A stretch of 64,000 bases of DNA. Origin: Crambe crambe. Lineage: Eukaryota; Porifera; Demospongiae; Poecilosclerida; Crambeidae. The translations under genes and the position numbers were made by a program. Each line of letters begins with the position of its first letter. Positions within the stretch are counted from its first letter, which is position 1. Shown in pieces: positions 14,791 through 61,622 of this stretch. The notes beneath the pieces were generated by a model. The model saw nothing but the letters and a program-made list of their open reading frames with translations, searched no databases and was not told the origin of the DNA. The stretch covers positions 3,100,001-3,164,000 of the forward strand of contig OZ004588.1 of the NCBI GenBank assembly GCA_963924555.1. Reading direction: 5' to 3'.

Positions 14791-14878
14791 ATATGCATAC
14801 CCTTTACCATATAGAGTTTAGATATGACTACCCTTTACCATAATTTTGGGCGTTGCACCAGGATGTGAAAAGAAAGAA

Positions 14879-15464
14879 ATGGGGAACAAGACGAATAAAC
14901 AGAAGCATGGGCCCGAGCCCGAGCCAAACTCTTTTCCTTCGAAGTCCGCAGGGAGCGATCTTTCTTCAGATTCCAACCCCCTAACCTGTGAAGCAAGCCA
15001 AAAAAAGACACACAAAGCTGCCTCCTCCCCTCCCCCTCCTGTAAACATTGACATTGGACCTTCCAAGCAAAATAAGGAAAGCGAGCCTTCCCCTGATGAG
15101 TTCTTCGATCCTCCAGATCTTCCTAGCATAGATGCAGGGAGTAAAAGTTTGTCGAGTGGACCAGCATTTAAGACTGAACCGAAGTCAGATCAATCTAAGT
15201 CTGCAGGGAGTGATCTTCCTTCAGATTCCAGTCCCGTATGCACCCCTGAAGCTGCCTCCTCCCCTCCTCATCCTTTGAACATTGATAAATCATCTGAACT
15301 TCCCATGTCAAATAAGGGGAGTGAGCCTCCCTCTGATCATCCAGACCCTCCTCTGGACACTGGGAGTAAGAGCAGACCAGCATTTAAGACTGAGTCAAGT
15401 CCTCCAAAGAAAATATCACGGCAGGAGAGGCGACGAGGAGAAAGGGCGAAACGCAAGTTCAAAG
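14879..15464 (+). CDS. Gene A exon 1: Ser/Pro-rich acidic N-terminus
   Basis: ATG at 14879 in good context (GAAATGG), open to the donor GTATCT at 15465, phase 1. 195 residues of low complexity with two internal repeats of KSAGSDL-SSDS/PSDSSP, runs of ASSPPPP, DPPDLPS and a basic end RRRGERAKRKFKG. No globular domain; probably disordered. The frame stays open back to 14846, so an internal exon starting slightly upstream is possible. The exon at 61347-61622 is a shortened paralogue with the same KRKFKG end and donor position. Confidence 0.7.
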
Positions 15465-21400: not shown

Positions 21401-24400
21401 CTTTGATGTATTGAAACATCGTTTCTTCATTTGACCAATGTTTGGGTGAATGTGTAATATCCCAGTCACTCGGAAATTTGAAATGGGGGTGTTGAATGGG
21501 GGTGACAACGGTTTGTCTTGACAGTGGAAGTGACATCATTTAGAAATTCAAATGTGAAAAATTGGCAACACTAAATTTGTTCTTTGTTGTGGTGGCTTTT
21601 CACTGGACAAATTTCATCCACACAAGAAGTGAATTTGCCCATGGTCTGTAGCCACCAAACTCTTCTAACTTGAACTTGTCATATGTCATCACAATACCTC
21701 GAGCAGCAGCAACAACAATACATGCAGATACAACACCTCCAGCTTCTCTCAGTTTCAGCAAATATGCTTGCACAACCATTATCATAGGGTGGAATGTCCC
21801 CCGCTTAGAATGACCCGGGGGTCATTTTACCCTAGGGTGAAGTGACCTGGGGTCACTCTAACCTAGGCTGGAATGACCCCCCTGGGTCACTCAGCCCTAG
21901 GGTATATTGATCCCTGTAGTGACCCCCTGGGTCACTTTGCCCTTTGGTATAATGACCCCTCCCTCCCCGTCTCTACATAGGATGTGGAATTAGATAATCA
22001 AATCAATTACTTTGGTGAACATCAAAACCACTTGATACTTTTTTTTTCTTCCATGCTGCTGCTGGTGCTGTGACACATTGCTTATGAAACCACTGAGTCT
22101 TGGCATGAGCTGCAACTGATAATCAGTTACAAAAATCTCAAAGTTAATTGCTGCCAAACTTGAGCTTTTTTCTGGTTTTCTACTGTGGAAATGATGTCAG
22201 TGCCAATTTTCTAACAGTTGAAAAGATGCTTCCGAAACTTGTGTAATATATGCAACAGAGCAAACAATCACTGCCATTACCCTGAATTTTGTACATTGAC
22301 GAAACATATATCCAGTGGAGTAGGAATAGGAAATTTATCTGGGGGAGGGGGGCAGGGACAATAATAAGTAAATCTCAGTAATAGCAACAAAATTCAATCC
22401 TTCTGTCATTAAATTGCATTAGCAGCTGACATCACACTGCAATGACATGTAATTGCTTGGTGCTTGGTCTTACTTTCAATATACTGTTCATATTTGGGGG
22501 GGCAGTGCCTCTCCATCTATAGTATTGGGGGGCAGTGGCCCCCCTCCCCCCCTCTCCCCCCATTCCTACTCCACTGTCTGATATCATAAATATAGTCTCA
22601 CGGGCCAATCCTTTACCAAAATACACCTCTGATATCAACGGAAACTGTTGATATTAAATTAGCCAGGGGCTGCTAAAAAAACTGTAAAGAAATATTGTTC
22701 TGTGATCATGAAGTGCCGAATACTTATTAGAGCATGCGCAACTCACATGTACACTTTACTTATGTGGGGGTCACTTGACCCTGAGGGGGGTCATTTAACC
22801 CTAGATTGGAGTGACCTCCGGGTCACTACACCCTAGGGTAGAATGACCGGGGGTCACTATACCCTCCAACACCGTATCTAAGTAGTCCCCCAGCAAAAGT
22901 TGCCTACCACGCTTTCTTTCAGGAAGCTCATCTACTCATTATTATCTGTTTCCGTTTCTCTCTCACACTTTCAAGGTAGTCCTTGATCGAGATGGTACTA
23001 CTGTTAATTTTCACCCTCAACTTTCAAGAGAAATGTGCAGCAGCTGCTGAAACTCCATGCTGACTGCATATCTGCCCATATCAGCACAATCCTTAGGACT
23101 ATATTAATAGAATTGTCATCTTTTTCCTAAGCTAGCTTAGCTACCTACGTAAGTATATACTTCATATATGGACCACGTTTTTTCTGTTTCTTAGCTTCAA
23201 CCATCACTTTGTCCACTTCCTTATTAGCGAGCGCTACTGCCCTCAAGGTCATAATGTTGGATAAAGATCCACTGGGGCTTGGAAGTCCATCCTTAGCCTT
23301 GAAATACTTCCATAAAGACATGTCTCGAGTATGTCAGAGCCACGTGTTACCATAATTTAAATTTTCATATAAATATAATTTCTGGTAAGTAGTTTTATTC
23401 AGACAATTTAATTTCGGAATACTTCCAACTTCCGAAAATATTTAATTTTTGAATTTTTCTGGAACTACAGTAACTAGTATCAATACTCTAAGTGCTAAGT
23501 AGATTTTTCAGAGCTATCTAGATCTTGGGGTTAGTAGGTGAATGCACTGCACATACAGAAAGAGAACAAAGAGCATTATAGAAATCCAATAGTCACTGAA
23601 AGGACAACAAAGAGGTTCTATGTAACTGAAGGTATTCTGTAATGTATGGAAATGAGTTGTCTCACATAGCCAGCCTCTTGATTGCAATGCTGAGATCACT
23701 AGCATATGTTAGGAAAGGCTATCGTAGAGGTTTTGTCCCTAGGACCAGAAGAGGTGTGATTGAGTGAATTAGACTCTTGCTCTCTAATACAATTTCTTTC
23801 TTATTTCTTGGCTAGCAATAGTCATGAAAAATGTTAAATTTTAATAATAAGGTCAGTCAGTCCTATTGAAGAGAACTGCAAGAAATGTGAACAAACTACG
23901 TATAGTAGTAAGAGACTTGCTGTATTATATATTCTGGGGGAAAGTTTAGTAATATTTTGGACAACATCTAGGGGATGAAATTTCCCCTACACCTCCCCCC
24001 TAATGGTTAGAGTTAGACACAAGAATTAGGTGGTTTGAGGTTTCCATGCAATGGTTAACAGTGACTTCTAAATGTTTGACCTCGTAACTTCCCCTCCAAG
24101 TCGAAAATCCTCTTATTTGTATGCTTTGGTACATTATGAAAGAGCCAACTTTGGAAAAGCTGGACCATCTACAGCTAGGTATTGCGTCTCTGAGAATTTG
24201 AGCTGAGCATTTGCATGTGATGATTATTTTATATATACACTATAGAATATTGGAAGATTGTCAGTTCAGCAGACTAGATCCAACCTTACATGCTCTTACC
24301 CGTACAGAAACTAATATGTTTGTCTTTTTGTTTTAAAATCATTGAGTGGGAAATGGGAGAGGAATATTTTAGTCACTCCTCAAACAATCACATGCCTTCA

Positions 24401-27400
24401 TTTTTCCTCACAAAAATGGCATACAATATGAGTGCATAATTTGTTTACTGTGCAATGAAGACATGTGAACTTGACCAAACCCATTTCTTGCATGTTAGTG
24501 ATGAGGGGATCATGCTTTTAGCCAAGTAGGACCCTCACCTCCTAAATAGCTTAATTGATTCATTGATAGCATAAACTTCCCCTCTCCTCCCACATTGATT
24601 ATTAATTGTATTATCCTGAAACATATACACACCCACACACAAACATCCCAGTGCCTCGCTCTCTATATGGAACCCTCCATGGTACTTGACTAGTACTGTA
24701 GATTCTGTGGGTGCTGTCTTATCTGAGGTAATAGAAGTGTTTGTGTCCTCCCAGACCCCAGCCTCACCTCTCACAGTTTGCTGGCTGCTCTGGACACTGT
24801 GGGGGACCATGTACTTGAGATACCATGGGGAAAGAAGAGCGAGATGAAGTCACGCGATGAGATGATAAAGTTCTATATAGATTTTTATCCAAACGCTGGA
24901 TGGAATCACTTGGCTGGGAGACTTCTCTACTGGGAACAACAGACAGCTCTTAAGAAAGTGAAGGGGAATGTTACAGCTGATAAAGGTAGGTGTATACATA
25001 CAAAGTGAGGCAAGGGTGAATATAGTCATGTGATTGGTCAACAGTGGATACTCTTATGAATAAATGACTCTCCAAGTATAAATATGTTTTTCTCACTAGA
25101 ACACATTCCACCATGTATCCACCACTACCAGAGTGTCTACACTCCAAAATACAATTTTTAAAGTTAAGAACAAGTTCCTTATAAATTTTTCCGCCAATAT
25201 GTACTAGTCCCAGGGGGGGAGATCCCCCTTTGATTAAAATTCCAGTAATCCTGTTCCAGTGTGTCAACCACTATGTGGAGGTCCCAGTGTGTCCACCACT
25301 ATTTGGAGGTTCCAGTGTGTCCACCACTATTTGGAGGTCCCAGTGTGTCCACCACTATTTGGAGGGTGGAATTGATGTGTACAGAGTTTTGCAAGTTGCT
25401 TATCACATTGCAAAATGCTAATACACAACTAAATCAACAATGTAGTAAAGCTGAATAGAAACATGTAAATTTACCATCATGTGACTGTCATGCATCAGCC
25501 AGATTTGAAAAAATAGCCAGGTACTGTGTACAAGTCTGTGTAGCTAACTATGTCCTACTACCAGCATTCTAATTACTTCTTTGGTAATGGCCAGATGACT
25601 CCCTATTACTACCCTTGGTCACAGCCTCCTTATCAACAAGAATGGGCAGGTGTAAGTCAGTAAGACCGTGATAACACCCTTATTCTCATTAGTCCATCGA
25701 AGAGTACAGTTGAAGATTCTGATCATGACTCAAGTGTAACTGAGCCTAATTTCAGTTAGTGTGAAAATAATTTGTCCCAATGAAAATAGGATTGAACACA
25801 AGACATTCATGTTGCGTGACCTTGATATGGGGGAAGTGAGCTCAATATTAGCTTTTAGAAAAGAGATACTTACCCAATTTGGTGATGGACTTATTGACGC
25901 AATTTGGATTTCGGATTCTACAAAGGAACTAAGCGAATATGGGATCACGATTTTGATGAACTGATCCAATCACTTCAAACAAAATCTAGTACTATAACTG
26001 TATGGTGTGAAGGGTACAGCAAGAAACGAAAGAAGGACTCCTCAGGCTCTGAAGATGAATCTAACGGAACAAAAAACCAAAAAAAGGAAAGGATCTAGTG
26101 ATGACAGAATGTCAAGAGTTGATGATATAACAGACAACTTGAGATGGGCATATGTAAAGTAACCTACAGTATTGTGTATGGGCTGAAATAATTGTTGGAG
26201 GCAGGCATTCATCTATGGAAAATCCTCCAAGAGGGTCATATTTCAAGAAATCCAAAATTCTACCATCACGCGATCTTTCACCAGTAAATTTAGAGAGAGA
26301 AAACCCTACTGTAATTACCCAGTTAAAGCTGCTGAATTGAAGACAATTTATATATCTCAAATTAAAGAACTCTATTCGTTGCTCAAGGTTGGGGCTATAA
26401 CAGATGGTGACTTTCAAAAACAAAAGAGTAGTATTTTAGAACTGATGGATAAATTGTAAGGCTATATTGCTTTTGATATTACCATACATTCTAATCTTAG
26501 CACCCACTAAGATTATGGAGCAAGCAATTGCTTAAATGGAAAGAATAAATTAGGGATCTTAATTTATTATGCACTATTCTATTTAAGAACTGCTTTCTCG
26601 TGGTGGGTTTTACCCAAAACTGGCAAGATCTAGACTAGCTGTAATTTGAAATGATCCTGCAACTTCAGTATGGTCATAATGCTACGCCTAAAACTTTCTC
26701 AGAATATCAGTCTCTAAAAATATATTATATGAAACATTACATATAACCTGCATGTTTAATATAATTTACACAATCTAGTGGAGTAATTGAAGCAAATGCT
26801 TCAGCGAATATGATTCTAGGTGTGTTTGTGGATTGATAACTTAGTTCATTATCTCTAAGATATGACTTCACTTGACTAAAAGCTTCCTCAATGGGGTTCA
26901 AGTCAGGGGAGTAAGGTGGTAAAAATCGTACTAAAGCACCAGTGGCTGAAATCAATTGAGTTACTGCTTCTACATGGTGGATAGATGCATTATCAAGTAT
27001 GACTACAGAACAGGGATTATCGCCACCATCGAATGGAAGTAGTATAGGAAGTAAGCACCGTTGTACAAAATTCATGAAAACATCCGAGTTCACATTTCCC
27101 TATGGCCGACAACCTCTTACCATATACAGTAAATTTGTGGGAAACAGGTGTCATGCTTTGTACTCTTCAACGGACTAATGAGAATAGGGCTGTTATCACG
27201 GTCTTACTGACTTACACCTGCCCATTCTTGTTGATAAGGAGGCTGTGACCAAGGGTAGTAATGGGGAGTCATCTGGCCATTACCAAAGAAGTAATTAGAA
27301 TGCTGGTAGTAGGACATAGTTAGCTACACAGACTTGTACACAGTACCTGGCTATTTTTTCAAATCTGGCTGATGCATGACAGTCACATGATGGTAAATTT

Positions 27401-30400
27401 ACATGTAAATGCCCTTTCTATTCAGCTTACTACATTGTTGATTTAGTTATCACAACTTTTGTATTAGCATTTTGCAATGTGACAAGCAACTTGTATGTGT
27501 TGTCTACTCATAATTATGTTCATTTGGAGGAAATGTATTGAAGTTTTGAAAACTACATAAATGTGGTCTGTGGCATGTAGTGTTGTTGGTCAAATGTAAA
27601 CAGTCTCTATGGCATGACATCTTGTAACTATACATTCCTATTTAACATTAAGCATGCGTGCCATTGTGGATATCCCAGGGTTGCAATTGTAATGTGTATA
27701 AGGAAGAATCTTAGGCTTTTGGGGAAGAGTTAGTACGTAGATGTCCCATTCAGCCAAGGAAATAAGTAATCAGGAAGTTACGCAATAGTAGTGTAGTGAT
27801 CAAAATAATATTCTGACACGACATTCTAATCAAGTATATCAGGTACATGCATAACACCAGTAAAGGCATGTAGTCTTAGTGTTCACAATGCATAGTCATC
27901 CTGAAGAAAATCTAACCAAAGTGGACTACATTAATATGCTCAAATTTCAGCTCTACAATGCTATACATTCCTATTTGACATGAACTTTCACATTCTCCCA
28001 GTCTAACATAATGTACTGTTGCCTCTGTATTACTTTTTTTTCCTGATGCAGTGCATTGATTTTCAGTAAATCTAACCAAAAGTTGTTTTTAGTGTTGATA
28101 CAATATTGTAACAGTTCCCATTGACTGGTTCGTTATTTCCACTAATTTTATTAAAGTACTACTTACCTGATGACTATCCATTAACTTTCACACGTGAAAT
28201 ATACCACAATACAATTTAGTAAGCAACCACAAAATTAAGTGAGCGATTGTTCCAGGAAATTCATTATACTATTCCGTGTTCACTGGCATTTCACATGCAT
28301 ATGGAGTATCTATATTATCTATGGCCTATGCAAAAGGCTGTAGAAAGCAATCTAGCTCAATTACAATTGGAGCATGTGCATTATGCACACACACGTATGG
28401 CACCATACGTATGCCTGGGGCATTTTGTATTGTAGACATATATATATTACAATTTCAATGAGTCATGACCTGAGAGTCAGCTCACTCACTCTACTCACTC
28501 GCTTAATTAAGTAAGATATCTGTAATTTAGGTCCTTATTTATAGGAATTATGTAATCTGTACGGCATATCTGATTATTGTATATGACCACATGAATTCTT
28601 TTGCCAACGGATACAGTTGTTAGTACAACTGATAGTAATTTTGTTTGAGTGATTTTAGTCCACTGAGGTCCCATGTAGTTTTAAATAGCAGTGGAATTAA
28701 TGTGTATTACACAGAAGATACTTTTTGTGCTCTGTGTTGTTTCCTGCCCATATATTAGCTAGCATATATTCATTTGTTAGACAATAACATGAATAATTCC
28801 CTTTGATATAATGAGGTAACTATATCATGTAGTAACCACTTGTTCGGCATACAAGTGATCAGGTATCTACTTAGATACCAACTTAGAGACCTGTGGTTGT
28901 CATAAGACTATACACAGTTTATACTAATGTCTAAGTCATTAGATCACTCCAGTGAGTGACTAGCTACTTGGTTTACAATAGACACCTCTGGCTCTGTCTC
29001 AGTATCTATTGTAAACCTTGTAGTCACTCACTGTCATGATCTAACATAAAAATGTTGATGACTGTCATAAATACTATAGATTGTCAGTGGTATGTTGTGT
29101 GGTTGGTCAGTTAGTTCTGACTTGATTATTTTTGTGACTTCCCTAGTCTCCATCATGTCACATTGTATTGCTATTGGTCAAGAATATCTAGGCAAGTGTG
29201 CTTTAATTTTCATTTCATAGTTTCTTTGTTTTCATATGATTTCCTCATTTGGATGACTATTTCACCTTTTTGTTTTCAATGAAGATACCTGATGGAGGTT
29301 TTAATATAGTTATCAGTGTATTATCATTATTATTGCAAACAGTTGAGTTATGTAATCATTAAGTTTTGTTCACGTGATCTAGCCGTTCCTGACCCAGCTA
29401 TCGAAGGATTGTACTAGATTCAATGATCAACTTCTTTTTTAGTACAGTCAAGGTCAAATAGGAATTGTGATATTTTTGTACATCCAAATAGCAATTATTA
29501 AAGGGGGTGGTAAGATTATTCCTATTCTGTTTCATTAAAGTGGCATTTTTTGTTGAAGCAATAAGCTTCTCTATAGTCATAGCTATGAGATACTGTATAT
29601 GGAAATGATACATACCTACATCAAGGTCAGAGCATGCATACTACAACAGGGGTCAAAGGTCTGATATCTAATGGTGATAGCAATCTTCAAATTATAGGAA
29701 TTCAGTTTTTCTTTTTATTTCTTTTCTTTTTGTGTATTTGTGTAAGAATATTATTAAAGGGGTCATACCTATCACACCATTGATTCTTTTGCTAACAGAT
29801 ACAGTTCTGATTTTGTTCGGAGGGTTTTTTGTGGTTTTTCTATTTTATGCTTGCCGTCCTTGTTGAGTGTACATATGGCTAGAGGGTATGAACAAGGATA
29901 GGTATTGTTGTGCATCAGTGTGGGAGGGGCTAACAGCTAAAAGGTTATGGAGCGCATTATTTCATTATTAATAATATAGAAATGTGCAACACAAATCTTT
30001 TTATGTCAAAGCAATTCCCACTATATACAGTACCTGTCATTCATCTCTTGATGTTAACACTAAGTGCATGCATACACCTCATAATTGTCTTTAGAGCATA
30101 AACTATAGTTGACTGAAGTAATACATGCTCATACTATTTCCATTTGTTCCTGTTACTTGTTGAATGGACTTATTTTTGTTGCTCAGCTCATGTTTTATTT
30201 TCTATGTTCTCTCCCACAGACCCCTCCCTCACCCTCACTAATCTCACTCAGCTGCTGGAGGATGTGAGGGATTTGATTGATGTGTCTGCTTATCTACACA
30301 TCCCCTTCTCAGTGTATTGTAGTATTACAACACAACAGTCCAGTGAGTCTGAACGTAGGAAGGCTTGTTGGGAGTGGTACCTGAACAACCACCCTTGCCC

Positions 30401-33400
30401 TTCATGGCGTCACATTGCTAATGCTCTGTATATAAGTAAGGAGCATGGAGTGCTAGAAGTGTTGAAGAGTCGCTACCTTAAAGGTGAGTCTGGTTCTCTG
30501 TGATGATTACTGGAATGGTTGATTTGCATGTGTCCTGTCCCCAACTATGTAAAAACATCATCCTATATGCCACTGTTATTAATTAAATTTCTTCTCTCAT
30601 AATCGATTGTTGTTGTTATTGTTGTTGTTGTGATTGTTATTTTTGTTAGTTTTAATTCATTGGGTAGATGATATGAATATCGTGTATTAGTCATCTGCTA
30701 TGGAGTACTGGCATGAAGTTACATATAAAAATACAATACTCTTTTTGCAGAAATATTATTAATTCAGTGTATTTTCTGCTGGTACTTAAGCCACTCTGTT
30801 TTTAGGAAAGAAGAATGAAGGAACCATTTGTAGTAGAAAATTGTAGTTCTTATGAAGAGATGCAGTCTTGCTGATATAGCTACTTACATTCAAGAATGAG
30901 CCTTCAACAAGAAAACAGTGTTCTAGCATAGCTGTACTACTCCACTGACAGTTGATAGAATTCTTTCTCTGCGTACCTATCACATGGTTTTATAGGCAGA
31001 GCTGTAACAAAATAAGACAAGTACAGCTTGGACATGAAGCAGGTTGCCGAAATTAGTCAGCTGATTCAACCTGTGCCTAATTGCTTCAGCCAGTTAGCAG
31101 ATTGAGGTTATAGTGGTTTGACTACTTCAGCTTCAAGGTTGGATGAGCAGTGCTTCTACATAGCAGAGGATCATCATGGGCTCTAACTGAGCTACATTAA
31201 ACATCTTTACATACTAAGTGCTATATATATTGTGAGACGATCGGTCATTTCCGAGGGCCATATTTGTTGTATGTTGTGTAGATTAACACATCTACATGAG
31301 GTCTTTCCATATGTACCATGACAGTAGCAATAAATTTGAAGGCTCTCAATATACTGCTCTGAAAGCCTTGCAGAAAACAGCTATTGGGCCTCTTCTTATC
31401 AAACTATGCAGATTAACTCATTAACAGCATTACATAACCACATACCTCAATATCTACAAATACATTACAAGCATGCATGATACTTTTACAAGCTATTTGA
31501 AATGAGATTACAAGAAGATACAAGATGTCAGTCAAGGTGAGTCTGGTTCTCTGTGATGATTACTGGAATTGTTGATTTACATGTGAGTCTTCTCTCCTGT
31601 CCTCAAAGAAGTAAAAGCATCTTCCTATATGCCACTGTTATTAAAGAAAGTTTAAATCGGTTCTCTCATAATCGATTGTTGTTAGTTGTTATTATTATTA
31701 TTGTGATTGTAGTTGTTATAAATATTTGTTTTGATTCATGGGGTAGGTTGTATGAATGTCATATATTAGACATCTGCTATGGCTAAAGTACTGGCAAGAA
31801 GTTGCGTATAAAAATACAATACTCTTCTGCCATCCATATGAATCCTCTGCCCACTCTGTTTTTAGGAAAGAAGAATAAAGGAACCATTTGTAGTAATAGT
31901 CCTCATGAAAAGATGGAGTCTTGTTTAGCCTCGTCCCCCCAGGCCCTCCTTTTGTTATGATTGTGGAAGGCCTGGTACGCGAAGTCACTGGTATACAACT
32001 GGGGCTTGAACCATCTATATAATTAGGCGTGGGCAGTGTATGAGAGCATAATGACCTGCCCACGTATTTGGCTAAAGGATTGACCTAAAGGCACCAGAAG
32101 AACTTTTGCTTTTTTGCTACAACAAAAATCAATAACCAATTTGCTATGGCCATAAATCAAGGATTTGCTAAAACTCATGAAGAATTCTGAGGCCAATCTA
32201 TTTATAATCCAGCTAAGCCTAAAATCTTGATAGCTTTACTATCTAATGATAGGCAGCTCTGATACTATCTGCTGCTAGGCTAGCAACACCCGAATTCAGT
32301 GGCAGCTCAGTGGCTTAACACCTCTTCTCTTTGTTAGGCCTGGTTGGCCATGTGCTCGTGCATGGTTGTATCACCAATTCGTCATGGTGATGTATGCATT
32401 ATGAATGCGTTTCCTTGGACTCACCCACACTATGAATTTCTATGGTTTTGCGATATTTTCGAGTACCAGGCCCTCCACAATCATAATTAAAAAGGAGGGC
32501 CTGGGGAAGGCTAGTCATGATAAATTTTTGATTTTGATTTATTTTCATGGTCATTAAATTAATCACATAAAATTTAATTACCTTGTACAATACGGAGTAA
32601 AAGCCAAAGAAAATAAAAATTGAAAACATGAATTATTATTTAACTGAAAATTTCCCAATTTATGGTAGCTACTTACATTCAAGAATGAGCCTTCAACAAG
32701 AGAACAGTGTTCTAGCATAGCTGTACTACTCCATTGGCAGTCATATAAATTTAAAGATCGATAGAATTCTTTCTCTGCATACCTAACTCATGGTTTTATA
32801 TCCACATCAGTTGAAATAAGACAAGTACAGCTTGGATATGAAGCTGGTTTCCAAACTTTGTTAGCTGATTCCACAGTCTTCTGTGCCTAATTGCTGCAGC
32901 CAGTTAACAGACATTGAGGTTATAGTGGTTTGACTACTTCAGCTTCAAGGTTGGATGAGCAGTGCTTGTAGGATGCTATAACTGATGGCCGTGTGTGGTT
33001 CAAAAAGTTCAGCAACAAGAGAGTGAACTTCATAGGATAAGATAAAATATAAAGGGAGTGAAGAAGGAATAGTTAGCTCGTAGTTTGGTAATATTGTTGG
33101 TTACTTGACTGAAGTTCACTCTCTTAATTAACAGCATTACATATCCACATACCTCAACTACAAGCACATTACAAGGATATGCATGACACTTTTGTAAATT
33201 TACAAGCTATTTTACAAGGACCCCAAGATGTCAGTTTGTGGATCAATGGCATCAACCAGGCCCAAATTTTTGTGAGGTAAAATTAGTAAAAAAAGTTTTA
33301 TGCACAAATTTTCATGAATTCCATGCCCCACAAAATTTTGCACTATACGATAATGGAACTTCAGCACAATAATTATATTTTATTAGCACTTTGTTGGCTA

Positions 33401-36400: not shown

Positions 36401-39400
36401 GATGTCAGACTAAAATCTGGACTGCTACGGAAAGCGAGACACTTCATTGTAGAAGAGAGACAGGTAATGGCCATGATCCCGCATCACGCACGCATGCACA
36501 TCATTATCATTATGATGTCATAGTTCTAATTATTTTCAAGGATTCTGATCGACTACGAAAAAAACAAAAATAAAATCCCATCGAAAATTTATACGATTAC
36601 GGTATATTTTTTCACTACTACTATTTTTCAGGAATGTGATAAGTATAAATATTTGTATGTTATTAGTTGCACTATTGGCATTATCAGGTTCTCCACCATT
36701 GGCTGACTAAAGTGGTACTAGGTAGCTAGCTATCCTGTCAATTGCTAGCAAATTCTTGATTGCTGATCGATTCTTGACCTTACGTAATTTGGAGCTGGCT
36801 ACCACTAACATGATCAGTACTCACTTGGCAGCTAGTGAGCATAAAGAAAGAAGAAATTGTTTTGTTTATCATTCCACTATCATATCTGGAATATAGTAGA
36901 ATGTCCTTACATGTGCATGCAAAAAACTAATACGTAATGTCCAAGAAAAAACTGCAGGACAGTATGCAATGATGTTCTATGTCTGTTGTGTGTGTAACAC
37001 ATACCAAGTAGAAAAAAATTAAATTTGAGTGGGTGTATTAAATATTAGTAATATAATTTATACATGCACAGTGACATTCGTCTGTTTTTTGTTTCATTGA
37101 CTACCCGTAGGTTCCGCTGAGTCACGTCGACTGTATAACGAAGCAATGAAGCAGGGACACGTAAAGTCCCAGATCAACAAAGCCCTCCTTTATGGGGCTC
37201 CAGGAACCGGAAAATCAAGTTCGATGGACCTTTTTGTCGGTAACCCTCCAAGACAAGCCAGAATAAGCACTCCTTTAGCTGCTCGTCCAATTACAATGAT
37301 TCAAATGGGAATCACATCAAAGGAGTGGAAAAAGCTTCATCCAAAAGAACGGAAAGAAATTCTAGCAAGGGCCATATATGCTCAGCTTCATGCCAACGAC
37401 ACAAATTCAGGTGAAGATTGTGAGTCATCAGCTAATTCTGGTGAGAGTTCTGATTCTGATGAAATATTAACGACTCCTGAGCATAAAGAAGCTCGTAGTA
37501 AAGAGGATAAGTCGACACGTGACGTACATCCACGAGTACACCCAGCAACTCCTTCCAGTCCAACATCTGCTAGCAAATCAAAGAAAGGTTCTCATTCGAA
37601 GGAAAAGATTTCACTGCCATCCCTTGGCACACATGATGAACTAACAAAATTATTGGATGAAATTTCCAAATCAGATGATCTTGAAGCTTTACCTGTCTTC
37701 CGGAAAGTTAAACTAATCGATTCTGGTGGACAACCGCAATTTCATGAGGTGTTACCTGTATTTCTTCGTCGCATGTCCCTCTACATATTCGTCTTCAAGT
37801 TGTCAGAAGAACTCGCCACCAAGCCCATGGTAGAGTATTTTGGGGAGGATGGGAAACGTGTGGGGACACCTTACCAATCAGCTCAGTCCAACGAGCAGCT
37901 ATTGAAGCACTGCCTTCGCACTTTGCACACCCACAGATCATCTCCCGATACTAAAGGTGAGTGCTCCAAAATCATGATCGTAGGGACCCACAGGGACGAA
38001 GAACACCTGTGCACGACCGAGACAAGAGAGGAGAAGAACAAGAAGTTAGAAGAGCTGTTACTGCCGATGTTCCAAGAGGAAGTCGTCTATTACAACCTGG
38101 CAGAAAATGAGGTGATCTTTCCAGTCAATGCCAAAAATCCTGAAGAGCTTGATAAGAGTACAGCTAGAGATATCCAAAGTGTAGTCCTAACAGAGTGTAT
38201 GCCTGATCCCATTGATGTGCCCCTTCAGTATTTCTCTTTGGAAATTATCCTTGAAGAAGTCAGCCTTTCTTTAGACAGAGGGGTATTGAGCAAAGAAGAA
38301 TGCCTTAGAGCAGCAGATAAGCTTTTCTTTAATGAGCATACACTGGATGCAGCTCTCCAGTTCCTAGATGAAATTTCGTCAGTCTTTTATTTCCCCGAGG
38401 TTCTGGATGGTGTTGTATTCACTAACCCTCAAGTCCTCTTGGATAAGGTAACTGAGTTGGTGGAGATGATGTATTGCTTGAGAAAAAAAATTGGTGGTAA
38501 AGCACTTCGTGCACGCTCTGGAGGCTGGAAGAAGTTTAAAGATCATGGCATTGTTAGCTTAAAGCTTCTACAAGAAAAAGAGTTTAATAAGCATTATGTG
38601 CCTGATATCTTTACTCCTGTTGATCTGGTCAAGCTCTTTAGAAAGTTGCTCATCATAGCTGACTTTAGTGCTTCAGAGTACATCATGCCTGCCCTCCTTC
38701 CTGTTCTTGAAACTGAAAAGGTTCATGAATATCGTTTGTCTAACGATTCACTTGTAGCTCCTTTTGCTCTGGACTTTCCACTCGGAGGTCCTCGTCTTGG
38801 TACTTACTGCAGTCTTACTTGCTTTCTTGTCTCTAATGACAATCAGTTTCCTTGTCCTTGGAAAATAGTGTTGCTTCCTCGTTCCAGCACTCCGGCTTGC
38901 CTGAATCGAAACTGCACCCAATTCATGGTGCCAGGTTTCCCTGGCTCTGTCACTCTGATTGACACATTTACACATTTTGAAATACATACACACACTGCTG
39001 AAGAAGTGTGTAGCAAGATGTGTTCCTTTGTCTCTCAAGCCATTTTTGCGGGCCTGAAGAAAGCAACTGTTGTTCTTGGCTACAACAACTCCATCCCTTC
39101 AAAAGCACTTCTTTGTCCGTGTGATGTTAGTGACCCTCATATCGCCACTTTTAGAGACAGAGTCTGGACCTGCAGTCGAGACTGCAATGTGTTTGGAGTG
39201 CTTACTTCTAGACAATCACTATGGTGTGATCAAGCAGATCATTCTCCTATGAAAAGTAAGTTAACACTCTGGCTAATGTTATATCCTTGACTTATTGATC
39301 TTGTTTTATTATAACTTATTTAGCTAGTGCCTTAATTCCTTCACTGCTTTGAATTTTGATAATTTTATCTTTATCATGGAATTTGTGATCATTTCATTTG

Positions 39401-39723
39401 CAGGAGCTTCTGCCTCTTCAACTCCTACTATGATGGAAATCATTCGCTTCCCTCTAAAAGATTCCAAAGTGAACTTGGCTCAAGAAATCGGAATAAAGTA
39501 TTTCGAATTTGGAACTTTCTTGCTTGAAGATGCCACTGGTGCTTGTATCAGTGCCTTGAAAAAAGAGTTGAGAGATAATGCAGAAGATATCAATCGCGAA
39601 ATCTTCCAAAAATGGCTGAGTGGGGGAGGAAAAAAGCCTGTTTCATGGGAGACTCTAATTACTGTACTTGAAGACATTGGATTGAGTGAACTAGCAAAAT
39701 CAATAGCAGAAGTCAAACAATAA
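14879..39723 (+). CDS. Gene A: multi-death-fold Roc-COR-Death protein (spliced model)
   Basis: Predicted join of 14879-15464, 19049-19315, 24755-24985, 30220-30483, 37111-39255 and 39404-39723: 3813 nt, 1270 residues plus stop. All five junctions are phase 1 with GT-AG borders, and the sum is an exact multiple of three, strong internal support for one gene. Order: Ser/Pro-rich acidic N-terminus (1-195), three death-fold-like segments (about 196-284, 285-361, 362-449), Roc GTPase with Walker A GAPGTGKSS (478-486), DSGGQ (653-657) and THRD (742-745), a COR-like region and C-terminal Death domain (1165-1270). Likely a cytosolic GTPase signalling scaffold recruiting partners by death-fold contacts. 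Known ROCO-Death combinations include DAPK1 and MFHAS1-type relatives; no kinase is present. Microexons in the long introns could be missed. Confidence 0.72.
15465..17955 (+). other. Gene A intron 1, first part
   Basis: No supported coding. Two stretches at about 15770-15866 and 16480-16585 are diverged duplicates of one another. About 16180-16370 and 16712-17560 are shared with 62860-64000, next to the paralogous exon. Confidence 0.6.
17956..18465. mobile_element. 510-bp TIR element with 5-bp TSD
   Basis: 40-bp terminal inverted repeats (17956-17995 and 18426-18465) starting CCATAGATTGTATAGACTAC, with two mismatches, flanked on both sides by TCAGG (17951-17955, 18466-18470). Non-autonomous DNA transposon in intron 1 of gene A. 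Near its left end it carries ATGGAGGAATCG followed 18 nt later by the donor-like GTAAGT, suggesting a captured or relic first exon. A 5-bp TSD does not clearly assign a superfamily. Confidence 0.85.
18471..19048 (+). other. Gene A intron 1, last part
   Basis: Acceptor-like CTATTATAG at about 18658 is followed by a short open stretch, but phase and donor do not fit gene A. The stretch is open on both strands and has no family signature. Nothing else seen until the acceptor ATTTACAG at 19048. Confidence 0.4.
19049..19315 (+). CDS. Gene A exon 2: Death-like domain
   Basis: Acceptor ATTTACAG, donor GTTAGT, phase 1-1, 88 codons plus edges. Contains the helix 4-6 hallmark of Death domains: YWIFNDPWASWRKLIQRL followed by DIADRIRKYAEKLTG, with the Trp-x-x-Leu pattern. 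N-terminal part VKNVMAVLKTLSLDN fits helices 1-2. Confidence 0.75.
20100..20456 (+). CDS. HIRAN-like ORF inside the pogo-like element
   Basis: Open frame to TAA at 20456 with the signature of HIRAN-like accessory proteins: NTIAVAVIRSGLVVGHFPKK, LFLRRGGTIYCIVT, and DLPQGGLEIPV. HIRAN domains bind DNA ends or forks in helicases such as HLTF; stand-alone copies are frequent in invertebrate transposon-derived ORFs (recollection, not checked). No ATG in frame at the start (open frame preceded by LSHNVRWIPA), so an upstream exon or a frameshift at about 20096 (ATG in another frame) is likely. The short conserved body makes it either a partial gene or relic. Confidence 0.55.
   Translation: MSHNVRWIPASEAIMNTEQYGQQLLESLFVVLGEPTNTIAVAVIRSGLVVGHFPKKISRVCSLFLRRGGTIYCIVTNTRRYSADLPQGGLEIPVATLHFEGINSLRRHLKKCMPNLNS
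20932..23321 (-). pseudogene. Pogo/Tigger-like DDE_1 transposase, broken
   Basis: N-terminus starts at ATG 23321 (MSLWKYFKAKDGLPSPSG, then KKRGPYMKYILT before a stop). The next piece, ELPERKRGRQLLLGDYLDT, abuts the inserted TIR element at about 22870. Beyond it the frame resumes at 21785 with VVQAYLLKLREAGGVV to WMKFVQ, a TGA, then KATTTKNKFSVANF. The segment with the first catalytic Asp is deleted near 21540-21600. The rest (21539-20932) keeps ITHSPKHWSNEET, ALVIMDNFKGQ (second Asp), LLPANTTDLLQPMDISVNKP (pogo-like D-D-D block) and ELGAKWLVKS. Stops, frameshifts, deletion and insertion show it is inactive. Confidence 0.85.
21787..22868. mobile_element. TIR element made of palindromic GGGTCA arrays, nested in transposase
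   Basis: Both ends consist of tandem, mutually inverted units of the type CTAGGGTNGAATGACCCCC / GGGGGTCACT, at 21788-21965 and 22762-22868, in opposite orientation. The ends align as TAGGGTGGAATG and its degenerate complement CACTATACCCTCC. The 800-bp core has no gene. Interrupts the transposase between LDT and VVQAY. Exact target duplication cannot be fixed (GATA on both sides is a candidate), so boundaries are good to a few bases. Confidence 0.7.
24755..24985 (+). CDS. Gene A exon 3: death-fold-like domain
   Basis: CTCCCAG acceptor, GTAGGT donor, phase 1-1, 76 full codons. LLAALDTVGDHVLEIPWG, KSRDEMIKFYIDFYPNAGWN and HLAGRLLYWEQQTALKKVKG keep the layout of the neighbouring Death-like exons (start DPSLT as in exon 4), but the family call is by pattern and context. 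Confidence 0.65.
25257..25368 (+). repeat. 28-bp minisatellite, four copies
   Basis: Unit CAGTGTGTCCACCACTATTT plus GGAGGTCC, four times with few changes. Its length gives open frames in two registers; these are not genes. Confidence 0.9.
25752..26459 (+). pseudogene. Transposon ORF1 (PB1-like N-terminus), frameshifted
   Basis: Begins VKIICPNENRIEHKTFMLRD..., continuing in another frame as DFDELIQSLQTKSSTITVWC and KKRKKDSSGSEDES; a third part reads YPVKAAELKTIYISQIKELY to SSILELMDKL with TAA near 26459. The layout resembles the accessory ORF of marine-invertebrate Tc1/mariner-like elements: a PB1-like fold, an acidic/basic linker and a C-terminal helical part. Several stops. Role in transposition unknown. 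Confidence 0.55.
26737..27093 (-). pseudogene. Tc1/mariner-like (IS630/DDE_3) transposase, C-terminal part
   Basis: 118 residues with the second catalytic Asp in CSVVILDNASIHHVEAV and the final acidic residue in LPPYSPDLNPIEEAFSQVKS, the typical DDE_3 signature. The DNA-binding N-terminus and first Asp are missing, as only 65 bp separate it from the right TIR. Convergent with ORF1. Confidence 0.85.
28940..29043. repeat. Imperfect hairpin / small foldback element
   Basis: Arms 28940-28983 and 29002-29043 are complementary over about 42 bp with few mismatches (core GGTTTACAATAGA), separated by an 18-nt loop. In gene A intron 3. Could be a tiny MITE or a hairpin RNA source. Confidence 0.65.
30220..30483 (+). 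CDS. Gene A exon 4: death-fold-like domain
   Basis: CTCCCACAG acceptor, GTGAGT donor, phase 1-1, 87 full codons. Starts DPSLTLTNLTQLLEDVRD and has ESERRKACWEWYLNNHPCPS, then WRHIANALYISKEHGVLEVL, matching Death helices 4-6 with the WRHIANAL core. Ends RYLK with G shared with exon 5. Confidence 0.75.
30484..33235 (+). repeat. Tandem duplication in gene A intron 4
   Basis: 30484-31534 and 31535-33235 are two copies of one unit, each starting with GTGAGTCTGGTTCTCTGTGA (the exon 4 donor region) and ending near ACAAGATGTCAG. The second copy has gained a MITE at 31926-32513 plus about 150 bp. The second copy repeats the donor without the exon. Confidence 0.8.
31926..32513. mobile_element. hAT-like MITE with 50-bp TIRs
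   Basis: Ends TAGCCTCGTCCCCCCAGGCC... and ...GGGGAAGGCTA pair over about 50 bp (31926-31978 with 32463-32513). Flanks GTCTTGTT and GTCATGAT match at 6 of 8 positions, as for an aged hAT target duplication. No ORF. Confidence 0.75.
33906..33972. repeat. Hairpin with 24-bp stem
   Basis: TTGACATAAACCCTACATCG at 33906 pairs with its near complement ending at 33972 around a 14-nt AT-rich loop. A shifted direct copy of the left arm lies at about 33842-33870. Confidence 0.6.
34361..34692. mobile_element. Short TAGCCTCG...CGAGACTA MITE
   Basis: Ends TAGCCTCGTCCC and GAAACGAGACTA are inverted. Flanks TAGTGCAG (34353-34360) and TACAGTGCAG (34693-34702) fit an 8-bp TSD with a 2-bp CA gain. Same end sequence as the 31926 element. 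Confidence 0.5.
35160..35795 (+). pseudogene. Two tandem fragments of the gene A Roc-COR exon
   Basis: 35180-35325 and 35560-35700 both copy the gene A region near 38705-38850. The first translates ALDFSLGGP and LLVSNDNQF, against ALDFPLGGP and FLVSNDNQF in the intact exon. Each is followed by the TTAACAGCATTACATAACCA tail also found at 31410 and 33130. Decayed duplicates within intron 4, upstream of the intact exon. Confidence 0.75.
35799..35973 (+). other. Unrecognised open stretch, possible pseudo-exon
   Basis: After GATTACAG an open frame GRLGEDSKSYVRGVDIKARP... runs to TAG at 35973. It is not part of the gene A frame (a stop would end the protein before Roc). No family seen; perhaps an alternative terminal exon or a relic of the duplication. 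Confidence 0.25.
35974..37110 (+). other. Last part of gene A intron 4
   Basis: No supported gene. A minus-strand frame at 36292-36474 is unrecognised. Ends in a T-rich tract and ACCCGTAG acceptor. Confidence 0.5.
37111..39255 (+). CDS. Gene A exon 5: Roc GTPase and COR-like region
   Basis: Acceptor CCCGTAG, donor GTAAGT after ATGAAAA; 715 residues. Opens GSAESRRLYNEAMKQGHVK, then Walker A GAPGTGKSS, a Thr in ARISTPLAARPITM as likely switch I, DSGGQPQFHEVLPVF as switch II, and VGTHRDE as the Roc variant of NKxD. COR-like signals follow: VLDGVVFTNPQVLLDKV, FTPVDLVKLFRKLLIIADF and YIMPALLPVLE. Between switch I and II sits a roughly 120-residue acidic Ser/Lys-rich insertion, so Walker A to DxxG is about 170 residues, against about 45-50 in compact Ras-like domains. 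The C-terminal 170 residues (SLTCFLVSNDNQFPCPW...) are not assigned. Confidence 0.8.
39404..39723 (+). CDS. Gene A exon 6: C-terminal Death domain
   Basis: Acceptor CATTTGCAG, stop TAA. 106 residues: VNLAQEIGIKYFEFGTFLLE, EIFQKWLSGGGKKPVSWETL and VLEDIGLSELAKSIAEVKQ, a full Death fold with the K-W-L and SWETL core. Ends the protein. Confidence 0.85.
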
Positions 39724-55368: not shown

Positions 55369-56058
55369 TGAAGTTATTTCGATATCTCAAGATTTTCATT
55401 GGCAAATTTTAATAGCTCAACACTATCATAGCTAGCTAGTGCCTGATGGATAAAAACAGATGAAGGAATGCTTTGAAGCCTGTGGTCAATGTATAAAGGA
55501 AATCTTCATACTAGCAGTAGTAGTAGCTATAGCTAATACAACTTATAAAAAGGCTGGACTCGGTTTGTAACTATTAGCTATTAGAAAATTTCCTTAGCTG
55601 TTTTATTTTATGCATCAGCAGTTGAAATAGGAATATGAATAACAGGAGTAGTAGCTAATTCAGAATGTCTTCAACTCTGTGTAATAGCTAAATATCAATA
55701 AAAGCAGTCTGCATTAAGAGTATAATAGGAATAGGAATCAGACTTTGTGTAGCATGCTATGAATTATATATCAATATGTATAGCATGCTATGAATAATAA
55801 TTCATAACTAACTACATGTATAATTTCCAGCCATTCTCATATTATCTTACTGCATGTGAATCAGATGCAAGAAGAGAGAAATAATTGCTTTTGATGGCTT
55901 TACATTTTGAATGGCTGAGCATTTACCTTCAATATTAAAAGTAGGATGAGAATCGTGAGATTTATCGGCATAGTGGCAGTCCTTAGCTACTTTAAATCAA
56001 CTAGCTTTGATTCCTGTTGGAAAGGCAGTGATGAGCTTATCATTTTAGGTGTGAGAGG

Positions 56059-56269
56059 ATGATCAGGTCTGAACTGGTGCAGTTGTGGAAGTCTCGGGTC
56101 CAGTACCTGAGGCAATATTATTGCTTCAATGGCCATAGACCAAAGCAGAGAGACTACCCCGTCCTTTCCCGCCATGTCTGGTTCATCCCTTTCATTTTGA
56201 CTGCATGGTGGTTGTTGATAGCTGTCATCTTTTTATACAAGCTCAAAATGCAGGATTTATTAAACAACG
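56059..56269 (+). CDS. Gene B exon 2: start and transmembrane segment
   Basis: ATG in AGGATGA context after the acceptor at 56048; donor GTGAGA at 56270. 70 residues: basic N-terminus (LVQLWKSRVQYLRQYY) and a hydrophobic span VWFIPFILTAWWLLIAVIFL, fitting a signal anchor with the N-terminus in the cytosol. Confidence 0.65.
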
Positions 56270-56937
56270 GTGAGAATTATGTATAATTTATATTAAGTGT
56301 AATGGATAGTTAACCACTATGAATAAAGTTGGTAGAATTACTTTGAAGTGTCTAAATGAGCACCTAAATGAAGTGTCTCTACAAAGATTACCATATACCT
56401 TGGTCTGTTCATTACAGAGAGTTAGAATGTGTTGTTATAGTTACTTATAAGTTTGATCTTATTATAACTAGGGTATTTTGACAAGCATTGGGTAGACTTT
56501 GCCGGTTCCTGATCCTAAGAAAGCAAGCGATTATGTCCTGTCTTGGTGTGTCTAGCTACCAGGTAGCTCTATAGCTATGATGTTCCATTAAATCACTTCC
56601 TGTGTAAAGCTATAAACTTAACTAGTTGCCTATAGTTAGTAAAATCTGAAGTATTAAAAATCCATTCTTGGTGGTGTTGGTTACGCAATTAAACTTTGAT
56701 GACATTTAGGTTGCACAGAAGGTGATTTCAGACTTGTAAATGGAACTAGTACTGAGGGTTGTGTGGAGATATGTCTCAATGGAACTGTGTGTGACCAGAT
56801 GTGGAGTGACACTGATGCCAGTGTGGTCTACAAGCAACTGGGAATGTCATCTACAGGTAGCACTATAACCTAAACTGAATATTTGAGAAGTGGAAATGCA
56901 AAATAATTAGTCCATAATAAATTATTTAATATTGCAT

Positions 56938-56989
<52 letters not shown>

Positions 56990-59900
56990 AGTAGCTCTCT
57001 CCTACCCCTCCTCCTTAGAAAAAAAAATAAAGTCAAAAATTATGGTACTCATTATTCATAATGCATTCTATAATTCTACAGTATTGAAAGAAAGACGGAG
57101 CTTACATAATTATATTTTGAACTGGATTTTAAAGCTAATAATTTCACATAGCCCTACTACTTGATGATTGTCAAAACTCCAAATTACATGACTGGGACTT
57201 TGTACCCACAACCCAATGCTCCATGCTTGCATAAAAAATTCCATCCAGTCTCTGTGATAAATTTTTTCTTCTTCATCATCATCTCCTTTTGGCCAACAGC
57301 ACTATAAGTATAAATGAACATATAATATAGAGTTGACATCACACTAGCCTACTGAGCTGTCTGCGTTTAACTTTTCTGAGCATGGCTTAGAAATAGAACA
57401 TGGGTTATAATTATGATAGCAGCAAAGTACATAGTCTAGTAGTTAGCATTGAGATGGGAAGAATAAACTAAAGTGCTTGTAAATCAGAAACCTTATATTA
57501 CATCATAGAAAATTTCTTTGAGCTATTATAATTATTTTTATTTCTACTAATGAGATAAAATTGAAATACTTATACTTAACTCTTTTAATGCTCTGTTTTT
57601 CTATAGGTGATATCACAAGATACTTGCTTGCTTTGAACTTCCTGCTGGTATTGTTGTGGTGGAAGCTTGCCATAACTGAATCTGAAGGAATGCTTAGACC
57701 TCACCTATATAAAGGCCCCTGTGGTTCTATGTGCACCAATCACAAGCTTCAATATGGCTGCACTACTGCATACAAGAATGCTTCCATAAACACTTTACCA
57801 CCCCTTCGTGATGACTGGAAGTGGTATCAAAGAAGATCTCTTTTCACTATCCATTATTCTGACCTTCAAGTGTTGGCGCCATTAACATTATTATTGTGTG
57901 GTGATATTGAAACTAATCCTGGTCCTGGTGAGTATGTTACTTTATATTCAGTGTGTATTCAAGCAAGTGTATGTGAATCAAGTGTCTATATACGTACACA
58001 GTATGTGGGCTAATAATATACCAGAGAAAATTAATAGTATTCATGGCCACAAATGGCTGATTTTGTAACCTGATAGCTACTGTATGTCATAATATGCTAG
58101 TATGTGCATTGTACTAGACTGTATATCAACTATGTGGTAATAATGTACCAACTAAAACTCTTAATGCTATTTCATGTATTCTGAATTCATAATTCAGTGA
58201 GTGAGCGTAGCAATCAAGCTGACTCTGAGGCTAACCCTCAGCATATGTGCAAGGGTTATAGTGTGTGTCGTATGTGTATCTGTTACATCCATTACGAAGC
58301 CAGTAGTGGTTATAGTGCTTCAATTTCAGCATTAACAATGTCTAGACGATACTCTTCAGTGCTTAAATTTTTTGATAAAGGCTTTATTCCTGAAACTATA
58401 TGTTTGTCGACCATTAGCTACCTACTCATCTATAGGTGAGCTCTGTGTCTGTGGTACTCATTCATGAGTGTTATGATTTAAATAAATAGACTATTATATA
58501 ATCATGATGGGTGGAGTTTCATACTGATGTTATGATTTTATACCTTAGGAGTTAAAGATAGCAATGGTTCAGATAACCATAGTTAGTGTTTAGTAATCAA
58601 TAGCTTAAAAATTGCCTTAGTACTTCCACAAATTTCATTGTTAAATTTTTGTGGTCTGTTCAACAATTATTAACCCTGCACAGTAAAAAGTAACATGAAT
58701 TTCCCAATTTACAGTAACTAATTACTTGGTTTATCTACTAATCAAAATTCCTAGTTCAGAGTGGCTTTACAGCTAGCTATGGAATGACATCTGCTGATGG
58801 AGATAGAACGATACTTTTACCTAGAAATGAATGAACATAATATGAACAGTTAATGAAGATTCATCTTATTCAGTGAAAAAAAAGGTTCACTTCCCTTCCT
58901 GCTCCAAAAGAGCTGGATGAGGCTAGAGTATAGATAGATCTGTTTAATCAGGTATTTTAATGATGGAATCTTTGTTTTTATAGATATCGATGAAAAGACT
59001 CTGCTAAGTGAACTAGTTGCAGTAGAGATCAAGTGGCTTCAAATAGGCATCCAGTTTGGCATCAAAAGAGACAAACTTAAAACATTTGAAGAAAATCACT
59101 CTTCCACTTTCAGATGTTTGATGGAAACTGTGAGCTATTGGTTGAATGGGAATACAAATATTCCAGTATCCTGGGAATCTGTAGTCACAGTTCTTAATGA
59201 TCCTTCTGTTGATGAGTCAGGAATAGCAAAGCAAATACAGGAAAAGTACTGCTCCAAGAAAGGTATATTTTTGTGACCACATAATATTTAAAGCTTAGTG
59301 CTATACATTAATATGGCATGATATGAGGGGAATATGGGGAAATATTTAGTTTAAGGCTGTATTGGCCCAACTGCAGGGAGGGACAATATACAACCCGAGA
59401 ACTGAATATTATTTTAATACTTATTGTACACTCATGCATTGATATTTCTAGGCCTAGAAGCATCATGAGATAAACTGCTGCAGAATTCAATTAAGCTTAC
59501 CTATCACCTTCAGAAATTTCAGCCAATAACTCTACTAGGCTATTCCATGCATGTGTAGCCAAGGTGTTGATAATGCCATTGAATATCATGTGAAAATTAA
59601 AACTTCCAGATATACAGAAAAAGGAAAATGTGTTTCAAGGTTGCATGTGGAGAGGTGTATGTGACCTCTTTGTCAAATACTTGCCTAGCTAGCAATCAAG
59701 TAACAAATTTTAGCTAGAGATTAGCCGATTGACAATGCTATTTTCATATTTCATGAATATAGCCTGTTTGCAGAATTCATATGAATTACTACTAACTATA
59801 GAAGACTGCTGTAACTAAGTATATATTTTGTGGCCAATAATCATTATAATAATGGATGGCATTTTTTTAAAAAGCCTAGCCTTTCTCTGAACTATTACTG

Positions 59901-61346: not shown

Positions 61347-61622
61347 ATTCCTCAGGGAACGATCTTCCTTCAAATTACAGTCCCCAAAGCTATGAATCAA
61401 GTAACCCTCTGATAGAGATCCCGGAACCTGCCCTTCCTCTGTTTTCTCAAGACATTGGACCTGATAAGGAGAGTGATCCTTCCCCTGATGATCCTCCAAA
61501 CCTTCCTAGGAGTGAGCTTCACCTTGGTGATCTTCCTCTTAATGAGTCCTTTGATCCTCCAGACCCTCCTAGTATAGCTGAGTCCAGGAGAAGAAAACAA
61601 AGGATGAAGCGCAAGTTCAAAG
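61347..61622 (+). CDS. Paralogue of gene A exon 1 (Ser/Pro-rich, KRKFKG end)
   Basis: Pyrimidine-rich acceptor CACCAAATCAG, donor GTACCT, phase 1-1, 91 full codons. SSGNDLPSNYSP, QDIGPDKESDPSPDDPPNLP and ESFDPPDPPSIAESRRRKQR MKRKFKG match gene A exon 1 (SAGSDLPSDSSP, DIGPSKQNKESEPSPDEFFD, KRKFKG). Either the start region of a second Roc/Death gene off the window or a 3' continuation of gene B. Confidence 0.6.

Follow-up and report, generated by a model that had tools for sequence, protein, structure and literature searches.

A canonical StopGo/2A motif lies at an exon edge between a predicted two-helix membrane leader and a Death-fold protein in a multicopy gene family of the sponge Crambe crambe

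A canonical StopGo/2A motif was confirmed in the window, by which the whole analysed stretch of 64,000 nucleotides is meant, and separates a putative membrane leader from a Death-fold protein within one predicted spliced frame. The preliminary description of this DNA had placed a 2A between a membrane part and a Death domain and had joined exon 57607-57927 in phase to the Death exon, and motif, frame and exon borders all hold, with phase-1 borders at 57927/58984 and a single open frame. The locus probably belongs to a large family in which a one-frame mRNA encodes a two-helix leader with a terminal 2A and then a cytosolic signalling protein, so that skipping would free a Death-ROCO protein and failure to skip would tether it.

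The sequence LTLLLCG-DIETNPGP forms the in-frame C-terminal end of the 2A exon (57607..57927, + strand, phase 1-1), which encodes the second TM segment YLLALNFLLVLLWWKLAIT (aa 125-143 of the joined frame), a Cys-containing tail, an L-rich tract and the octapeptide. DIETNPGP (57903..57926, +) fits the core octapeptide (D/G/C/N)(V/I)ExNPGP, with the skip predicted between Gly (57921-57923) and Pro (57924-57926). The L-rich hexapeptide TLLLCG upstream of this core (57885..57902, +) fits a known class of upstream context, L-rich and ending in (A/S/C)G, that is set out in a section of PMC12846837. A degenerate 2A pattern matched the window once, at 57903-57925 (+), and had 0 matches in 100 dinucleotide shuffles of it, and six-frame translation of the window gave one core octapeptide and zero further NPGP. 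Judged by its borders, the 2A exon splices in phase 1 to the Death-fold exon 58984-59262, and the joined frame of five exons keeps phase 1 throughout and is open over 411 codons.

Upstream of the 2A, the TM exon (56049..56269, +) has its start codon at 56059 and encodes a basic N-terminus and then TM1, VWFIPFILTAWWLLIAVIF, which covers aa 40-58 in the joined frame and has a hydropathy of 2.36; its donor follows 56269. The leader measures 225 residues to NPG and holds two TM segments. Since the 2A lies about 80 residues past TM2, both helices would already be outside the ribosome when NPGP is reached. By the positive-inside rule the 2A end of the leader is predicted to be cytosolic unless a third, weaker hydrophobic stretch adjoining the 2A (aa 198-216, mean 1.29) also spans the membrane, in which case the topology of the leader would change.

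The first domain after the skip is Death-fold exon 1 (58984..59262, +), which begins Pro-Asp-Ile-Asp. Its AlphaFold model (pLDDT 94.6), compared using VIA-align, has FADD as nearest structure, and the modelled Death fold speaks for a place of the exon in the Death domain superfamily. Pfam Death gave no match on window exon 58984-59262; at E 0.1 it matched 8 of 23 aligned relatives, and in a separate scan a homologue scored 25.7 bits, over the cut-off of 22.6. No scanned exon of this gene passes that cut-off; Death2 scored 21.8 bits and the last exon 21.5 bits. Death exon 1 is followed by an acidic/proline-rich linker exon with a basic stretch at its end (61347..61622, +, phase 1-1) and, past the window in window-equivalent coordinates, by the Death2 exon (65337-65600), a further exon (70945-71211) and a weakly Death-like exon (76831-77106). 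The interval C11:3183402-3185573 holds a Roc/COR-like exon, 84% identical to that of the neighbouring gene, after which comes the closing Death-type exon with a stop. The preliminary description was right in placing a Death-fold domain after the 2A, but the protein is not a lone Death domain, as the Roc/COR-like exon and the closing Death-type exon with its stop follow. The gene spans about 56.0 to 86.3 kb (window-equivalent) in the order TM, half SRCR, TM+2A, Death1, linker, Death2, two exons, Roc/COR-like and closing Death-type. In the Roc/COR-like exon, P-loop, DSGGQ and GTHRD motifs were recognised by eye; the Roc profile scored 18.0 bits in this gene and 17.5 in the neighbour (cut-off 27), Pfam listed no COR, and searches of PDB and NCBIfam gave no match.

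The same order of exons as found past the window is seen in the neighbouring gene, a member of the same family whose 3′ part occupies 14828-39723 (+) of the window. It comprises a linker-like exon (14828-15472, +), recognised by eye and missed by tblastn at E 1e-4, a Death2-like exon (19057-19317, +), two further exons (24751-24987 and 30210-30485, +), a Roc/COR-like exon of 729 residues (37101-39287, +) and a closing Death-like exon with a stop (39328-39723, +). A tblastn search at E 1e-4 turned up neither a TM nor a 2A exon for this neighbour within the window, so its leader must be different, lost or located beyond the window.

Reading through the intron between the 2A and Death exons adds 28 codons and then a stop, and a short membrane protein would be made if that intron were retained. 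The leader and the Death-ROCO part might on this ground be two genes, the TM-2A exon yielding a short membrane protein by intron retention and the Death gene starting independently. This is very improbable, as the phase-1 AG/GT borders and the order of the exons recur over many copies, and a separate leader gene would gain nothing from ending in a 2A. Among 14 close copies, all scorable borders retain AG and GT, and in the more distant of these copies the exons resemble each other more than the introns do.

The exact 2A pattern had 208 matches in the genome (143 Mb, 119 contigs) and 0 when read backwards. A genome search with the whole 2A exon gave 83 matches, 0 of them with a stop, and 65 of at least 60 bits are here called strong. 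For pairing with TM and Death exons 81 of the 83 were used, two partial duplicates being left out. On the same strand and within 15 kb, 63/65 strong 2A exons have a TM exon upstream of them and, inversely, 68 of the 71 TM-exon matches in the genome are followed by a 2A exon. A TM exon was found on the opposite strand at 0/81 2A places and downstream at 6/81.

This pairing, together with AG/GT borders and open frames, also bears on whether the 2A exon is a captured or mobile fragment of a retrotransposon or virus that lacks a function in the gene. Parts of the literature report 2A motifs in non-LTR retrotransposons, a 2A of that kind being expected in front of an APE/RT frame, and the preliminary description had allowed for a 2A exon found solely within a retrotransposon transcript. 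No RVT_1 place lies in the window among the 150 scored of 801 candidates, and the exons that follow the 2A are of Death type, so an identity as a non-LTR retrotransposon 2A was rejected. When 28 of the 150 RVT_1 places were compared with the 2A sites, one lay within 6 kb downstream (C8:6512977). Nor was a viral contig encoding a relative of the 2A exon found in a contig search from which records near the window's genome were possibly left out. A captured fragment of this kind is hardly credible; for the short motif itself, a viral or transposon source in the distant past may apply. Elsewhere in the window, Pfam recorded transposase-like remnants at 163-735 (+) and 26740-27099 (-), with DUF4371 at 55 bits and DDE_3 at 69 bits respectively, and a third DDE-like frame was recognised by eye at 21096-21539 (-). 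Rfam gave nothing at gathering score on the window, and Pfam nothing of note on six further window ORFs.

As a part of the gene, the octapeptide is conserved to an extent that supports protein-level constraint across dozens of copies, as judged from codon comparisons. Each of the 64 strong exons that could be scored has D(V/I)E(T/I)NPGP at its end (DVETNPGP 60, DIETNPGP 3, DVEINPGP 1), and in 63/64 a GT donor stands directly after the octapeptide (G|GT). Extraction required the 2A pattern, which is present in all of these 64; the remaining copy, L040 (C11:2665928), was left out of the constraint analysis because an insertion immediately ahead of the core breaks up its 2A exon; octapeptide and donor are still present beyond that insertion. 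Relative to the most distant group, a mean of 4.2-5.4 of the 6 synonymous sites in the eight core codons differ and 0-0.3 of the 18 non-synonymous core sites (core dN 0-0.015), against a dN of 0.52-0.53 in the remainder of the 2A exon; at this distance the octapeptide is close to saturation at its synonymous sites, and its amino acids scarcely differ. Comparison of the two main groups gives dN 0.011 and dS 0.25 for the core, against dN 0.34 and dS 0.77 for the remainder of the exon. The window's close group shows 0 synonymous and 0.38 conservative amino-acid differences (V/I, T/I) per pair in the core, so that the constraint becomes visible only at greater distance. Over distinct 2A contexts of all leader types, a G precedes the D in 88/88, at least 3 of 4 upstream residues are aliphatic in 87/88, and the context is L-rich and ends in [A/S/C/G]G in 88/88. 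A DVE(S/T)NPGP motif was in addition observed in tandem at C9:306738-494751 and in L104, with at least 16 copies on C9.

It is conceivable, though unlikely, that the motif, although genuine and present in the spliced message, brings about little or no skipping, the octapeptide being kept for another reason and the product being mainly a membrane-anchored Death-ROCO receptor. Chimeric 2A sequences were often inactive in the experiments covered by a portion of PMC12846837, and sponge NLRs with TM segments are read as putatively membrane-bound in a passage of PMC12909245. Against this, the constraint sits on the residues needed for skipping, and the L-rich context is of a class that was active in assays reported in part of PMC12846837. 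Synonymous codons moreover change freely between distant groups, so the core is not kept as a splice signal.

The half-SRCR exon (56710..56856, +, phase 1-1), which lies between TM1 and TM2, scored 23.6 bits with Pfam SRCR (cut-off 26.1), and the match covers profile positions 5-44 only, whereas a complete domain has about 100 residues; being half a domain only, its role in binding is doubtful. Such an exon is present between the TM and 2A exons in 16/65 strong 2A copies. Among 150 scored SRCR matches these 16 have this position and the rest lie elsewhere, mostly on C20 and C18. In a tree, which was a short run with the bootstrap not settled, 15 SRCR-bearing copies make up one side of a branch (support 97/90), and SRCR presence required 1 change as compared with 13.8 in shuffles. 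Because the SRCR-bearing copies form a single group, a single capture most likely brought the SRCR half, in the form of a phase-1 exon, into the intron between TM and 2A. SRCR was consequently rejected as a core part of the design: the split of leader, 2A and Death in the preliminary description of an SRCR/Death splitter stands, but its SRCR part is incidental. The basic design, as the exons predict it, is a two-TM leader, then the 2A and then a cytosolic signalling protein.

Judged by coordinates, a Death-like exon lies within 15 kb downstream of 28/65 strong 2A exons, upstream of 7/65 and on the opposite strand at 0; the Death list employed held 108 of 150 places, the 150 having been scored of 606 candidates. 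A Death profile applied to fetched DNA, built from seven exons of which some were its own hits (including exons of L063, which have no Pfam Death match), adds 10 copies and raises the number with a downstream Death-like exon to at least 38/65, which is a lower bound because the lists are incomplete and only part of the DNA was read. In the 1.5 kb read downstream, no Death exon was found in L045, L048, L050, L051, L053, L054, L057 and L058.

On C11, 11/11 SRCR-bearing copies are followed on the same strand by a Roc/COR-like exon at a distance of 22-31 kb, the pairing there being based on 80 of 142 Roc/COR places. The genome-wide pairing used 91 of the 142, those on C14 and C18 and all but one on C17 being left out, and found a Roc/COR-like exon within 35 kb downstream of 26/65 2A exons, upstream within the same distance of 24/65 and on the opposite strand of 0; random places gave a downstream mean of 2.6 and a maximum of 8. 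Roc/COR exons are upstream nearly as often as downstream because the genes stand in tandem arrays. The pairing was therefore rejected as proof of direction, and the limits of the gene rest instead on this locus and its neighbour. Roc/COR places on C11 are mostly without a listed 2A leader (39 versus 13), which suggests that the leader is optional. Scoring of 142 out of 449 candidates gives at least 142 Roc/COR-like exons for this genome, with 39 in tandem on C11; these exons occupy C11 at 1.6-3.85 Mb and are found also on C14-C18, a very large ROCO-like expansion of which a part has 2A leaders.

Leaders with a 2A also stand before other proteins in this genome, Death-NACHT (NLR) genes among them. 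In L063 (C16) a homologous leader, whose TM exon matches in its first 37 residues only, is followed by an exon without a Pfam name and then by a NACHT ORF (79 bits). L109 (C5:9012401-9018400) has an unrelated leader with a 2A, which the 2A-exon search did not find, followed by a Death match at 35 bits and a NACHT match at 67 bits. In L010 and L012-L014 still other leaders with a 2A precede Death-like exons recognised with the Death profile built here. NACHT lies within 12 kb downstream of 10/137 2A places (9 different NACHTs), upstream of 3 and on the opposite strand of 0, while random places gave a mean of 1.6 and a maximum of 6; pairing of 2A with NACHT thus concerns a minority of 2A places. 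No NACHT was listed near C11 3.15-3.19 Mb among 103 scored of 232 candidates, nor among 150 scored of 202. Apparent leucine-rich repeats were seen by eye in L109, and 2A-NACHT pairs recur nearby on C5. A further 2A leader, IIFYLLLLSGDVELNPGP, missed by the 2A-exon search, occurs in L001-L009 (C1 3.55-3.99 Mb), and in L001 an Ig-like exon was recognised by eye after it, so the use of 2A leaders may extend beyond Death genes. There is a somewhat better than even chance that StopGo serves as a standard N-terminal switch of an expanded immune repertoire, in which several non-homologous leaders, all with a 2A at their end and at or close to an exon edge, have been fitted to Death-ROCO, Death-NACHT and other receptors, the efficiency of skipping determines how much of the sensor made from one mRNA is tethered and how much cytosolic, and the arrangement was reached independently of sea urchins.

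Splicing, skipping and topology at the locus are here read from the sequence. The basic N-terminus and a hairpin of TM1 and TM2 would expose the half-SRCR loop on the outer side and keep the tail with the 2A on the cytosolic side. Most ribosomes would release the leader at NPG and resume from Pro, giving a free cytosolic Death-ROCO protein that begins Pro-Asp, and the non-skipping fraction would give a membrane-tethered form of it. The free protein would consist of Death1, the acidic linker, Death2, the parts encoded by two exons (the second weakly Death-like), the Roc/COR-like part and the closing Death-type part. The occurrence of Death, NACHT and Roc-type domains, together with the tandem expansions, leads us to infer a role in immunity or cell death, as a receptor or adaptor with two locations. 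If this reading is right, at least 65 exon copies keeping the signal under selection, with the other leaders and the 208 exact motifs, would make C. crambe a heavy natural user of StopGo; the membrane-bound NLR and Death proteins of sponges would then have to be read differently, and the locus would offer a directly testable system of two products for innate immunity in early animals.

Among ROCO (Roc-COR) proteins, some that carry Death domains are known. The protein downstream of the 2A resembles these in its P-loop, DSGGQ and GTHRD motifs (by eye) and in a long stretch followed by a Death-type exon; it differs in a Roc below cut-off, in having no COR match, in its multiple Death-type exons and in the 2A leader in front. 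With the StopGo sequences of RNA viruses the sponge 2A shares the core D(V/I)ExNPGP and an L-rich, LLLLSG-like upstream hexapeptide, but the sponge copies are cellular, spliced and multicopy; in the relevant section of that study one motif (6) of the L-rich class was assayed and supported skipping, and cellular use of StopGo is called rare (PMC12846837). Among the papers listed by literature searches there was no report of a 2A in sponge receptors, although the Rao 2025 Cell Rep survey of eukaryotic and viral 2As may already list sponge ones. TM domains in sponge NLRs are described in an excerpt of a paper on Dysidea, which suggests putative membrane-bound NLRs (PMC12909245). The present genes are alike in combining TM segments with Death or NACHT, but that excerpt mentions no 2A, whereas in the sponge family described here it would detach the TM part.

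The closest precedent is the set of 2A-like signal sequences of sea-urchin (Strongylocentrotus) NLRs, for which the pertinent part of Roulston et al. 2016 (PMC4981915) describes skipping that separates the leader from a cytosolic product, with about 80% skipping for one leader sequence in reporters and dual localisation on failure. Both systems place a canonical 2A N-terminal to an expanded immune-type family with Death or NACHT domains, and in both a membrane-targeting leader would be split from a cytosolic product, in the sponge as predicted from sequence. In that same part of the account the sea-urchin 2A belongs to a signal-like peptide of 26 residues at the very N-terminus, whereas the sponge leader extends over about 225 residues with two TM segments, carries its 2A at an exon edge and here precedes a Death-ROCO-like protein instead of an NLR (PMC4981915).
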